Below, in pieces: positions 3,001-24,837 of a stretch of 64,000 bases of DNA. The stretch lies in contig JACPFR010000018.1 in assembly GCA_016182905.1 (NCBI GenBank), positions 1-64,000 of the forward strand. Direction: 5' to 3'. Below the pieces are notes generated by a model. That model had not been told where the DNA came from. It searched no databases and saw only the letters and a list, made by a program, of their open reading frames with translations. Both the position numbers and the translations under genes were made by a program. The stretch comes from Elusimicrobiota bacterium (GTDB taxonomy: Bacteria > Elusimicrobiota > Elusimicrobia > UBA1565 > UBA9628). The first letter of the stretch is position 1. Every line of letters starts with the position of its first letter.

Positions 3001-6000
3001 CTTGGAGGATCAGCGACGGCGAACCGGCCAGCGAGATCTGCCACGTGCTGTTGGCCACCGCAGCGCCGCCGAGGTCGTAGCCCCAACGATCTCCGGCCGA
3101 GAGGACGGTCCCGGTCTGCGTCCCCGAGAGACGCAGGCCGTGAGAGGCGTTGCCGTAGGCCGAGTTCCCGACCAGGACCGGAAGCTTGTCCGCGAAGGCG
3201 AAGCCGTCGCCGGTGTTCGAATAGGACACGTTGGCCACATAGAGATTGCCGCCGCGCGCGTCGACATCGTAGAAGCCCTCCTTGGTGTTGCCGTACGCCG
3301 CGTTGAGCAGGAACACGCTGTCCCCGCCGGCGTCGGAGCGCGTGCGCCAGTCGGCCCCGCCGGTCGTCGAGAGGTCCGAGATCTTGAAGCCCTTGCCGAT
3401 GTTGTCGTAGGACTCGTTCGCCGTGACCGTATGCCCCGTGCCGTAGACGCGGATGCCGGCGCCGCTGCCCCAGCCGACGTCATGCACCTTGTTCTTGGAG
3501 ATGAGGGCGTTGAAGCCCGCCACGGTCAGGCCGGTGCCGTCGATGTCGTAGACGTGGTTGCCGACCACGATGTTGTTCATGCCGAGCTCGGTGCCGTTGT
3601 GGCTGCCGGACTTCGGGCCCTGTCTCACGCCCAAGCCCCACCAGCCGCCGCCGAGGCCGTGCACGACGTTGTCCTTGACCGTGGTGCTGTCGCCGTACAC
3701 GCGCAGGCCCTGGCCCCAGCTGGCGTCCGCGTCGTTGGCCAGCACGAGGTTGTCCTTGCCGTGCACGCGGATGGAGGTGTTGCTGTTCTCGAAGGCGTAG
3801 TTGCCGCGGACGACGTTGCGGTCGCCGTTGACGTTGAGGCCGCGCCAGCCGTTATGGATGAAGGTGTTGGAGCTGACGACGTGGCCGCTGCCGTAGATGC
3901 GCAGCCCCACGCAGCCGTTGGCCACGAAGCGGTTGCCGTCGAAGAGCGCCCCGTCGCCCTGCATGCGCACGCCCACGCAGTCGTTGCCGACCGCGTAGTT
4001 GCCGAGCAGGACGTCGCCGGTGGAGTAGAGCTTCAAGGACGGGACGTTGCCGAGCGTGTCGGCGAAGAGGTTGCCGACGTAGCGCGTGCCGGCGCTGTTC
4101 TGCGCGTAGACCGCGAAGTAGTCCGAGCGGTAGATCACGTTGCCCGTCAACGTCACGCTGGACGCCTGGCGCAGGTACACGCCGTACTCGTTCTCCATGA
4201 TGGTCGAGCTCGAGATCGAGCCGCGCGTCCCCGCGCCGTCGAAGGTGACGCCGTAGCGGCCCGGGGCGTCCGTGCCGAGCCACGCGAGCTCGGCGTAGGC
4301 GAGCGCGAAGCTCGTCGCGTTCTCGGCGAGGCTGCGCACGTAGGCGGCCTTGGTGAAATCGGTGCTCGAGGAGCGGATGACGACGTTGCGGTCGAGGTTG
4401 CCGATGGGGACGGGGGCCAGCGCGTAGTGCGAATAGCGCAGAGGGCCTTCCAGCGTGACGGCGTAGGCGGGGCCGCCGCTGATGGCCGCGATCGTCGAGA
4501 CCTCGCTGGACTCGATGGCGACGTCCTCGGTCTTGCCCACGATGAGGCGGTCGCCGACCTGCCAGCCGGCGACGCTCGTCGAGCCGTACACGGAGAGCGC
4601 GGTCGCGCCGGCGAGCGCGTCCACGGACGAGAGCGCGAAGGGGGTCTTGCTCGAGCCGTGGGCCGTGAAATCGGCCCCCTTCTCGACGATGAGGCCGAAG
4701 TAGTCGGCGCCCGCGGGCGCGAGCGCCAGCTCGGTCGCGACGCCGGCCGGGATGGGGTCGCCGTCGCGTCCCAGGTCGAGCGTGCCGCCGGCGGCCACGC
4801 GCACGTCCCCGGCCGCGACGACGAGCTTGGAGGCCGCGGTGCGGCTCGCCCGCAGCGTCCCCAGGACCGCGACGCCGCGCGCCGCGGCGGTCGTGACGTC
4901 CACGGTGACGGAATGCCCGGCCGAGACGGTGACATCCGAGCACTCGGCGGGGGCGGTCCCGCCCCAGGTCGCCGCCTGCGACCAGAGTCCCGAGGCCGCG
5001 CTGACGACGGGCAGGCAGCCGCTGACGGTCGTCGCGCCGGGAATGGCGACGGGACCTGGAGGCCAGCTCAGGTCGCCCGGGTCCACGACGAGGTCCGTGT
5101 AGGCGTTGGCGATGGAGAGCTCCAAAGTCTGCCCCGCCGCGGCGCCGACGACGTCGGCGACGACGTAGACGCACATGGTCTGCGCCGAGCTCAGCGCGAC
5201 CGAGCCGGAGAAGCTCGAGACGCCGTCGGGGCCGGAGAAGCCGTCTACGTCGGTCGCGCCGTACTGCGGCTCCGTGCCCGCGTAGGACTCCGAGGCGCAG
5301 TTGTAGGGCGAGGTGACGTCCAGGTCGTAGCGCAGGCGCACGTTGTCGATCCGCGCCGCCGCGTCGATCGTGCCGCTCTCGCCGATGGTGATCCCCGACA
5401 CGGTCGTCGTGCCCCCGGGCTGGGCGAACACGAAGGCGCCGCCGAGGTAGAGCGCCGTCGCCGTGCTGTTGGCCAGCGCCGTCTGCGCGCCCGCGGCGGT
5501 GACGAACAACCGGTCGGGCAGGGCCGTCGAGATCCCGCCCGCGTAGTGGGCGACCGAGTTCCAGTTCAGGGAGCCGACGCGGAAGTAGAACGTCGACGCC
5601 GTGACCAGCCCGCTGAGCGTCAAAGTCGTCTGGCCGACCGCGGGCGTGAAGCTCGAATAGACGACCCCGGTGAAGTCCGGGGCGCTGGACGCCTGCAGCA
5701 AGTAGCCTTCGGCCGTGCTGGAGGAGCCCGCCTGGGCCGCGGTCGGCAGGGGCAGCCAGTTCAAAGTGACGCTGTCGATATAGACGGCGGCCGCCTGCAG
5801 CCCGGAGACGGCGTTGGTCAAGGTCGAGGTGGACGCCGGCGCGACGGCCGCGTAGACCGTGGTCCCGGCGGCCAAGGTGCCCGCGCGCAGGAAATAGGTC
5901 GTATTGGGAAGCAGGCCTTGCGGGCTCAGGGACAGCAATGAGTTGTTGGCGGTGACCGACGAGTGGACCGCGGAGCTGAAGTCCGAGTGCGTCGAGGCGT

Positions 6001-22665: not shown

Positions 22666-23349
22666 ATGCCGCCGAATGAAGACTCGATGGATTGGCTGGG
22701 GGAACTGTCCTGGCAGGGCTATCCCCGGCTGGCCCCGATCCGGGACGTGACCGCGGCCGCCGACGCGGCGCCCGACGTCCCGCGCCCGCGGAAGGGCGGC
22801 GACGTCCGGGTCGAGACCTTGGCCCGGGAGAACGAGGCGCTGCGCGCCAAGCTCGACGCCCTGGCCGGCCTCGCCGCCGAGTTCGAGCGCCGCCTCGCCG
22901 AGGCCGCGTCGGCCTACGAAGGCGCCGCGCTGGAGTCGGATTCCGCTCGCCGCGCGGCCGAGCTCGAGAACGCCCGGCTGTCCGGCGAGCTGGAGAGCGC
23001 CCGCGCCGAGCTGTCGCGCCGCGAGTCCCGGGAGCTCGCTCGCGAGTCCGACCTCGCGCTCGAGCGCGAGCGCCGCGCCGACGCGGAGAAGGCGCTGCTC
23101 GAGGCTCGAAGAAGGGTGAACGACCTGGAGGCCGATGTGGCTGCCGCCCGCTCCAAGGCCGGGGAGCTTTCCGGCAGCGTCGGCGAGCTCCGCCGCCAGG
23201 CCTCGGCCTCGCACGAGCGCCTCCTGCAGGCCAAGACCCTCACTGACCAGGACGTGCAGATCCTGCGCGCCGAGATGCGGGAGTTCCTCGCCAAATTCCA
23301 CCGGATCCAGGAGACGTTCTCGGAGAACAAGCCCGGAGACAATCGATGA
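22666..23349 (+). CDS. Coiled-coil protein of unknown function
   Basis: This 227-residue cytoplasmic protein has no recognised family. The first 50 residues are Pro-rich and probably disordered. Residues about 52-200 are a long coiled coil rich in Glu, Arg, Leu and Ala heptads (for example LARENEALRAKLDALAGL). The tail ends with a shorter helix (FLAKFHRIQETFSENK). The stop overlaps the next ATG as ATGA. The partner also has a coiled coil, so the two products may form a hetero-oligomer. The nearby response regulators are divergent and share the intergenic region. Confidence 0.7.
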   Translation: MPPNEDSMDWLGELSWQGYPRLAPIRDVTAAADAAPDVPRPRKGGDVRVETLARENEALRAKLDALAGLAAEFERRLAEAASAYEGAALESDSARRAAELENARLSGELESARAELSRRESRELARESDLALERERRADAEKALLEARRRVNDLEADVAAARSKAGELSGSVGELRRQASASHERLLQAKTLTDQDVQILRAEMREFLAKFHRIQETFSENKPGDNR

Positions 23350-24389
23350 AATATTGGACCTACATGAAGGGAGAGGTGCCCGGCAGCTACGAGCCCGCGG
23401 CTCTCGCCGCGCTCCCCGGCTTCACGATGACCACTCTCGTCTGCCCCGGAGAGGGGGAGATCGCCGAGAAGAACTGGCGCCGCGCGGGCGAGTTCGAGGA
23501 CATCGTCCGCGCCCTCGACGCGCATCAGGCCATGACCCCTCCTTCCGCGCCTCTCGGCGGGCCGCCAACCGCCAACGACGTCGACGCCCTCCTCGACGGC
23601 GCGAGCACCCGCCTGTTCTCCCACGTCGCCGACCTCATGAAGGAGCTCGAGACGCGCCGCGACGAGAAGTCCCTCGTGACCTCGCTCCAGCGCCAGATCT
23701 CCGCGCTCAAGCAGGAGCTCGCCTCCGCCCGCGAGACCGCGACCATGCTCGAGATCCGCATGCCGCGCATCGCCGAGCTCGAGGAGGCCCTGAGCAAGAG
23801 CCAGGCCGCCCTCGTCCAGGCCCAGACCACCCTCGCCACCCGCGAAGCCCAGCTCGCCGAGATCCGCATGGCCGCGGAGAAGATGCGAAGCGACCTCGAC
23901 ACGGCCAAGCGCCGCGCCACGCAGTCGGAGGGGGACCTCGCGATCCGCAACCGCCTGGTGGACAAGCTCTCCAAGGAACTGTCGGACAAGGAGCTCTCCT
24001 TGGCCAAGGCGCTCGGAGTGATCCGCCGCCTCGAGGAGGACCTCAACCGCCTCTGCCCTTCCCCCGAGCTGCTCAGGGCCGCCGCCGCCGAGCCCACGCC
24101 CGCGCCCCGGCCCGCCCCCGTCCGCGCCGCGCCTCCTCCGCCGCCGCCCCCGGCCGCGACGGCCCCCGAGGCCGCCGCCCCGGAAGCCGTCGAGCCCGTC
24201 GTCCGCCGGGTGCTCTCCGTCCCCGAGTTCAAGACGCCCGTGCCGCCGCCCATCACCGGCACCTTCACCAACGACGATCCGCCTCCCGCCCCGCCCTACC
24301 TCGAGCCCCAGCATCCCGTCGAGCAGCCCAAGGCCCAAGAGGCGCTGATGAGCTTCCTGCGCCGCGTCTTCCCGGGGCAGAACCACTAG
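23346..24389 (+). CDS. GYF-2-like domain plus coiled-coil protein
   Basis: This is a 347-residue protein. The N-terminus (about 1-55) has the WTYMKGEVPGSYEPAAL...LVCPGEG pattern seen in GYF_2/DUF4339 peptide-binding domains (Trp-Tyr opening, Gly-Pro turn, Leu-Val strand). Residues about 85-240 are coiled coil. Residues about 250-300 are a Pro/Ala-rich linker with runs of seven prolines. The C-terminal 30 residues (EALMSFLRRVFPGQ) form a short helix. The ATGA overlap with the preceding coiled-coil gene indicates an operon. Function is not known; a scaffold or membrane-linked adaptor is plausible. Confidence 0.65.
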   Translation: MKYWTYMKGEVPGSYEPAALAALPGFTMTTLVCPGEGEIAEKNWRRAGEFEDIVRALDAHQAMTPPSAPLGGPPTANDVDALLDGASTRLFSHVADLMKELETRRDEKSLVTSLQRQISALKQELASARETATMLEIRMPRIAELEEALSKSQAALVQAQTTLATREAQLAEIRMAAEKMRSDLDTAKRRATQSEGDLAIRNRLVDKLSKELSDKELSLAKALGVIRRLEEDLNRLCPSPELLRAAAAEPTPAPRPAPVRAAPPPPPPPAATAPEAAAPEAVEPVVRRVLSVPEFKTPVPPPITGTFTNDDPPPAPPYLEPQHPVEQPKAQEALMSFLRRVFPGQNH

Positions 24390-24415: not shown

Positions 24416-24536
24416 GGGGCGAAGGATCGACGCCCCTCGGGGACGCGCGGCATCGAGCCGCGCTCGGGGGTCTTGCGCGACCATGAGCATCTCCGTCGCG
24501 CGACCCACGCCCCTCGGGGCGTCGATCCTTCGCCCC
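24416..24536. repeat. Cloverleaf-type palindromic element, copy 1
   Basis: A perfect 21-base outer stem (24416-24436 pairs with 24516-24536) encloses two hairpins. The first pairs GCGCGGC with GCCGCGC around ATCGA. The second pairs GCGCGAC with GTCGCGC around CATGAGCATCTCC. It lies in the gap between the coiled-coil operon and groES and matches copy 2 in inverted orientation. It may act as a terminator or be a mobile REP/MITE-like element. Confidence 0.75.
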
Positions 24537-24614
24537 TTCCTCCCGGAAGCGCGGGGGTCGCGTGGTTCATCGCTTCGCGATGTTATAAAGCACACGGCAG
24601 CGAGGCGCATACAG

Positions 24615-24739
24615 GGGGGCGGGGAAGCGACGACCCGAGGGGCTTGGGATAGACGCGACCATGGTCTTCATAGTCGCGTCTATCCCGGAGGGCGCGGCCA
24701 ATCGCGCCCGTCCCCGAGGGTCGTCGCTTCCCCGCCCCC
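24615..24739. repeat. Cloverleaf-type palindromic element, copy 2 (inverted)
   Basis: A perfect 22-base outer stem (24615-24636 with 24718-24739) encloses a 14-base-pair hairpin (24646-24659 with 24673-24686, 13-base loop) and a smaller hairpin (GGGCGCG, loop GCCAAT, CGCGCCC). Read on the minus strand, the order of parts and the CCCTCGGGGACG junction match copy 1, so the two are inverted copies of one family. Several compensated stem differences suggest the fold is conserved. Confidence 0.75.
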
Positions 24740-24781: not shown

Positions 24782-24837
24782 TTGACAACTTTCGGGACCT
24801 CGTGTTATAATTAGCACTGGATGGCGGCGAGTGCCAA
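24782..24837 (+). promoter_or_regulatory. groESL promoter with CIRCE operator
   Basis: TTGACA at 24782-24787, an 18-base spacer and TATAAT at 24806-24811. A CIRCE element follows immediately at 24811-24837: TTAGCACTG-N9-GAGTGCCAA, which differs from the consensus TTAGCACTC-N9-GAGTGCTAA at one position per arm. This implies HrcA repression and heat-shock induction. The ATG is 50 bases further on, behind GGAGG. Confidence 0.9.

Follow-up and report, generated by a model that had tools for sequence, protein, structure and literature searches.

The doublet beside groES

Two inverted copies of a palindrome that folds as a cloverleaf occupy positions 24,416 to 24,739 of the window (the whole 64,000-nt stretch of Elusimicrobiota DNA that was analysed), with a coiled-coil ORF (23,346-24,389) as the upstream neighbour and groES on the other side. 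Such pairs are here called cloverleaf doublets, a name of convenience. The first element, E1 (24,416-24,536, + strand), is closed by an outer stem in which the 21-nt 5' arm (24,416-24,436) is the perfect complement of the 21-nt 3' arm (24,516-24,536). Folding places two hairpins inside it, also on the + strand: P1, with 7 bp and the loop ATCGA (24,445-24,463), and P2, with approximate limits of 24,466-24,507. The spacer, defined by position and assigned to no strand (24,537-24,614), separates E1 from the convergent element E2 (24,615-24,739, - strand). The two arms of the E2 outer stem, 22 nt each (24,615-24,636 and 24,718-24,739), are again perfectly complementary; P2 (24,646-24,686) has a perfect 14-bp stem (24,646-24,659 with 24,673-24,686) and P1 (24,690-24,709) has 7 bp and a loop with CCAAT on the + strand (ATTGG on the - strand), all of these being features of the - strand element. 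In both elements the two inner hairpins branch from a junction, and below it lies an internal loop of two bases.

The fold is far more stable than that of shuffled sequence. E1 gave z-scores of -9.7 with DNA and -10.2 with RNA energies, and E2 gave -12.3/-12.6 and -13.5/-13.1, respectively; across both elements and both strands the range was -8.9 to -12.6 for DNA energies and -10.2 to -13.5 for RNA energies. None of 200 shuffles folded as well as the real sequence in any of the eight folds (two copies, two strands, DNA and RNA energies). Aligned in opposite orientation, E1 and E2 are 73% identical and have CCCTCGGGGACG in common, and their stems diverge in sequence with pairing kept. The original prediction had described two inverted cloverleaf copies with perfect outer stems of 21-22 bases, two inner hairpins and a 14-bp hairpin in one copy; all of this was borne out by folding, with the interval correct to a base or two, and the alignment bears out its reading of stems that differ while remaining paired. 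Common origin, proposed from the shared junction, is upheld by the 73% identity and by CCCTCGGGGACG. Directly past the doublet, at 24,782-24,811 of the window, there is a perfect sigma-70-like groES promoter (TTGACA, 18 nt, TATAAT).

A family of convergent doublets

BLASTN with each copy recovered further copies in the same genome, and a covariance model, R1, was built from 17 copies. E1 and E2 score 121.7 and 136.6 bits against R1, and a search of the whole genome (3.98 Mb) found 21 elements at 13 sites, eight of them occupied by pairs and five by single elements, and in addition a weak remnant. The expectation that the palindrome would prove to be a family with other copies is therefore satisfied. 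All eight pairs are ordered + then -. RNAalifold applied to the 17 copies gave 42 base pairs, 27 of which were changed on both sides. An identical 83-nt core was seen by eye on different outer stems in three elements of this genome (the second elements of C7 and C32, and C14a; L116:2367, L118:2998 and L124:1650), which suggests that cores may be converted between copies.

In searches of other genomes, R1 matched 20 of 58 (own genome included) at E 0.01 or better. With a second model, R2, built from 66 sequences, 29 of 235 genomes gave a match at the class level (E 0.001 or better), as did 23 of 340 at the phylum level (E 0.0001 or better). Within the own genus, 15 of 19 genomes matched in both R2 searches, those lacking the family being G002, G008, G012 and G018, and the family is rare elsewhere in the phylum Elusimicrobiota. 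Six elements were found in G037, which belongs to another family of the same order, and one match each at E 0.001 or better in five genomes of genus g53, from another family of the same class. The g53 elements (L249, L253, L254, L255 and L257) have a similar general architecture by eye, with weaker support, and their homology to the main family is uncertain; some of these cloverleaf-like structures sit between purine-synthesis-like genes. When single genomes representing 84,980 species, possibly not including the own genome, were scanned with a pattern, three stretches were obtained, all in Elusimicrobiota/Elusimicrobia. Assembly breaks occur at or within about 160 nt of an element in G007 (contigs C145, C78, C85, C97 and others), G014 (C24) and G009 (C407), so that copies are probably under-counted in fragmented genomes. 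The sites studied in other genomes were fetched loci, a subset of those existing.

Elements matched by R1 or R2 are about 116-140 nt long, in a model of 128 positions, and share one plan: an outer stem of approximately 20 bp, free to vary in sequence, is followed by an internal loop of two bases and then by a three-way junction, which is conserved and from which two inner hairpins branch. As regards a MITE of a DDE transposon, which would be expected to have terminal inverted repeats, a target site duplication and a parent transposon, inspection by eye often shows a loose repeat of the AACGCYGATRYGGGC kind at the outer ends. Alignment of the best 150 of 167 matches (A3), with opposite-strand matches to one place merged before counting, gave 125 distinct elements in 77 sources, namely the window and 76 fetched loci. 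Among these same best 150 of 167 matches, all 43 neighbours less than 400 nt apart are convergent (+/-), with spacers of 0-154 nt, and since many pair sites are mutually orthologous, the 43 pairs do not represent 43 independent events. Six of six additional pairs are also convergent. A further convergent pair, in G019 (L265; 3976-4102, + strand, and 4557-4683, - strand), is 454 nt apart, and the ORFs inside this 454-nt interval score as non-coding.

Identity within pairs is 61-86% (median 74%). Several subfamilies can be recognised by eye in which the doublet consists of two recognisable unlike units and a related spacer, for example at C2 and C8 of the own genome. The proposal that partners are more unlike than expected by chance was unsupported, as 16 of 39 fell below the mean of other elements of the same genome, with no pair above 86% identity. 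Similarly, a 3-kb interval between two elements of G014 was considered as an autonomous element and rejected; it holds what we take from sequence to be an M16-type peptidase gene, present at the same place in the own genome.

Placement and inheritance of sites

Genes and their orientation were called with a home-made program based on codon usage, by which 81 of 82 sites fall outside genes. The 3' ends of adjacent genes lie at a median of 28 nt from the element (70 of 92 within 45 nt), and adjacent 5' ends at a median of 78 nt (11 of 49 within 45 nt). For the 63 sites with both neighbours called, the layout is convergent in 25, co-directional in 30 and divergent in eight. The neighbouring genes are varied, and include some that are presumably groES, RnpA-like, MraZ-like and M16-peptidase-like genes, as judged from their sequences.

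Orthology of the flanks was assigned by blastn and a geometry rule; tblastx was discarded because GC-rich sequence of low complexity led it to join almost every site to the others. By blastn of flanks, 12 of the 13 own sites are orthologous to element-bearing sites in other species. At the groES site, G001 has the doublet, G003 has a truncated remnant (by eye) and the other relatives have none. Two genomes without the doublet, G009 (L143) and G005 (L146), show by eye a plain GC-rich hairpin with a T-run upstream of groES, which is likely to be a terminator.

Covariation and arm-matched change

In an alignment of 66 elements, 46 of 50 base pairs are changed on both sides. Paired cells make up 89.3% of the total, compared with 63.2% after shuffling and 36-49% when the pairing partners are slid, and the covariation score is 0.614 as against 0.155 in the control. 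The alignment used for pair counts (A5) was fitted to R1, so that these counts lean towards the R1 structure. Covariation, which the original prediction had expected a covariance model to reveal, is thus present beyond both the shuffled and the slid controls. It is, however, also what is expected of a DNA palindrome.

In 122 elements from the best 150 of 167 matches (those shorter than 118 nt or identical being left out), the 2559 outer-stem cells comprise 2418 Watson-Crick pairs, 24 G-U, 47 A-C and 70 others on the top strand. Read on the bottom strand, the same 2559 cells give 47 G-U and 24 A-C, so that G-U makes up about 1-2% of cells on either strand. Moreover, 92 orthologous comparisons covered 1260 unchanged and 661 changed outer-stem positions; 490 of the changed positions (74%) differ on both arms and are paired in both species, and 171 changed otherwise. 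Median identity at these orthologous sites is 0.69 for arms, 0.81 for the core and 85% for flanks. The 92 comparisons overlap and, like subfamily members, are not independent, and effective numbers are therefore below the counts. Together, the inheritance of 12 of 13 sites and the changes on both arms indicate that sites are old and stable, with arms drifting together.

The two strands are not equivalent. Within the windows examined, 56 of 122 elements have TC on both sides of the internal loop on the top strand, which corresponds to GA/GA on the bottom strand, and the same motif occurs in P1 of 50 of 122. The P1 loop is AT[TC]GA in 95 of 122. The bottom strand, with the GA/GA internal loops, folds more stably in 103 of 122 elements with RNA energies and in 106 of 122 with DNA energies. 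The top-strand excess of A-C over G-U adds to the evidence of a strand difference. We take the folding bias to suggest that one of the strands has a role in single-stranded form, be it RNA or DNA. It also weighs against the explanation by arm copying given below, as an asymmetry like this would equally follow if selection acted on a transcript or on just one of the DNA strands.

Y1 transposases and relation to REP elements

The own genome has five Y1 genes (L061-L065; on C16, C25 and C12), each with an inverted repeat of about 29-39 nt that is perfect or nearly so. The repeats vary between the genes, most of them beginning with GGTGTCAG or similar. Y1 genes occur in 14 of the 19 genomes of the genus. 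No cloverleaf lies beside any of 32 Y1 loci, where the best matches reached E 0.69 and 1.7, and three genomes (G013, G014 and G015) have 19, 7 and 4 cloverleaf matches, respectively, and no Y1 match, with G014 and G015 only 72-75% complete. A REP-associated Y1 transposase, anticipated by the original prediction, is consequently unsupported as a general rule. A pattern for one Y1-type repeat matched the own genome 19 times, and one of the repeats is found elsewhere in it as short doublets. At C9 (L282) and C63 (L296), a cloverleaf or remnant is enclosed by GGTGTCAG...CTGACACC inverted repeats of Y1 type, that of C9 being nearly the same as the repeat of the Y1 gene at C16; cloverleaves or remnants likewise lie inside such repeats at L196, L210 and L132:1714, and the arrangement is seen by eye in G001 and G003. 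These cloverleaves may be hitch-hiking.

Neither terminal motif of REP elements stands out. GT[AG]G was not clearly enriched (9 top and 10 bottom of 123, against 5 and 1 of 121 in the control), and the same holds for CGTC (12 top and 5 bottom of 123, against 12 and 16 of 121). REP dimers and BIMEs, as outlined in PMC3733652, are extragenic palindromes located mostly downstream of genes, between co-directional or convergent genes. Cloverleaf doublets resemble that outline in having units of opposite orientation and unlike sequence, in being extragenic and mostly 3' of genes, and in spacers of tens of bases that in some cases contain a hairpin. They differ in size, since a unit of about 120-140 nt with a three-way junction contrasts with the REP hairpin of 20-40 bp given in the same account, and are thus 3-6 times longer. 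In addition, unlike REPs and BIMEs, cloverleaves number approximately 20 per genome, lack a clear GTAG/CGTC foot, have an outer stem without fixed sequence and pair in one orientation only. With REPINs and their RAYTs, as portrayed in PMC3116915 and PMC6006769, they have in common an inverted doublet as the basic unit, long vertical persistence and singles that resemble doublets minus one partner; they differ in that no RAYT lies beside the repeats and no recent spread is seen. TIRtrons are described in PMC3733652 as Y1 genes flanked by long terminal inverted repeats, a type that fits the own Y1 genes; a few cloverleaves lie inside such repeats, and most doublets have no frame of this type.

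Hence, the proposal that the elements are REP/BIME-like stands as regards layout, with inverted unlike units downstream of genes, but not as regards foot, size or a general link to Y1 genes. Its alternative of a structured RNA is less favoured than maintenance of the palindrome at the DNA level, given the scarcity of wobble pairs and the both-arm changes at orthologous sites. The family is not filed under REP or REPIN here, because size, junction, foot motif and transposase differ.

Interpretation

The groES-site doublet is probably, in our judgement, a convergent unit of a BIME-like family of palindromic repeats resident in the DNA of one Elusimicrobiota genus, with arms matched by DNA copying. 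The analysis demonstrates the family and its fold, the convergence of every pair, a position just past stop codons, sites passed on vertically and, where these are orthologous, changes that affect both arms. The arms may be kept matched by DNA-templated copying, either through hairpin or cruciform template switching in replication or in a single-stranded transposition step, a mechanism that we infer from the joint change of the two arms and the scarcity of G-U/A-C intermediates. Template switching, according to PMC8794818, makes double changes in one step and so maintains hairpins; under it, several bases should change on both arms with no wobble pair in between, matching the cloverleaf pattern. 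The cases set out in that source are RNA genes, whereas the substrate here is a dispersed intergenic repeat. Cores would occasionally be homogenised between copies within a genome. The doublet may once have spread as a unit through an enzyme whose substrate was most likely single-stranded DNA. In their present 3' untranslated locations, doublets would for the most part no longer move, and would be tolerated or of slight use. Against this explanation, neither a recent jump marked by a clean empty site or a duplicated target nor a mobilising gene was found. A more specific proposal, which must be regarded as doubtful, is that the family forms a separate class of maintained DNA palindrome, in which a doublet of unlike three-way-junction units is recognised as folded single strands by a hypothetical enzyme; each round would copy one arm from the other, so that the outer stem drifts and the fold is inherited.

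Several features would suit a cis-acting structured RNA at mRNA 3' ends, kept by selection on the transcript as a stabiliser or as a terminator without a U-run: the position at a median of 28 nt from gene 3' ends, the strong covariation, the conserved junction and P1 loop, and the tandem G-A loops on the strand that folds better. A plain T-run hairpin also replaces the doublet at groES in G005 and G009 (by eye). Selection on RNA would proceed mostly through G-U pairs, however, and the rarity of G-U in the outer stems (24 of 2559 cells on the top strand and 47 on the bottom) suggests that DNA-level arm copying is to be favoured over it. Strong selection and unequal mutation could contribute to the pattern; double changes could likewise be obtained by strong selection on the fold. 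Pairs are always convergent, so that any transcript carries one unit in each orientation, and singles between co-directional genes have the stabler strand as the sense strand in only 3 of 12 cases. A run of five T or A, counted as a sign of intrinsic terminators, occurs in the element region or within 40 nt at only 5 of 82 sites. No Rfam family matched at gathering score anywhere in the window, and the sub-threshold matches, mostly to microRNA hairpin models, were set aside as hairpin look-alikes. On balance, the structured-RNA reading appears rather unlikely.

Ordinary REPINs, i.e. REP doublets moved by the RAYT (a Y1 HUH transposase) of the same genome, would account for inverted doublets with the right spacing in a genus where 14 of 19 genomes have Y1 genes, and for the few cloverleaves inside GGTGTCAG...CTGACACC repeats, including the near-identity of the C9 and C16 repeats. 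They would not account for 32 Y1 loci with no cloverleaf beside them, for cloverleaves in the Y1-negative genomes G013, G014 and G015 (the last two being the incomplete ones), for the want of a clear GT[AG]G or CGTC foot or for units of several times REP length, and we consider this explanation improbable. Parvovirus ends are T-shaped, which recalls the cloverleaf doublets. If the elements were remnants of the palindromic termini of a replicon or transposon that was linear or ended in hairpins, a short interval could carry a T-shaped palindrome at either end, the two oppositely oriented, with identical arms expected if one was copied from the other, and the 454-nt interval of L265 could be seen as such a member. 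Nevertheless, no replicon-type gene was seen between the pairs, the ORFs of that interval scoring as non-coding, and no autonomous form was found, making an origin of this kind very improbable. The BIME-like DNA repeat family is accordingly retained as the best explanation.

Significance

A literature search, largely at summary level, found no description of the cloverleaf-doublet family. This is a real repeat family, BIME-like in layout and place and otherwise undescribed in the literature searched. It adds to the Elusimicrobiota a large, structured and vertically inherited family, of a sort for which the same search found no precedent in the phylum. Covariation commonly counts as proof that an RNA is functional. 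With 74% of changed outer-stem positions altered on both arms, almost no wobble, and a convergent pairing and placement that fit a DNA repeat, the cloverleaf family lends itself naturally to testing whether RNA covariation can be mimicked by arm copying at the DNA level.
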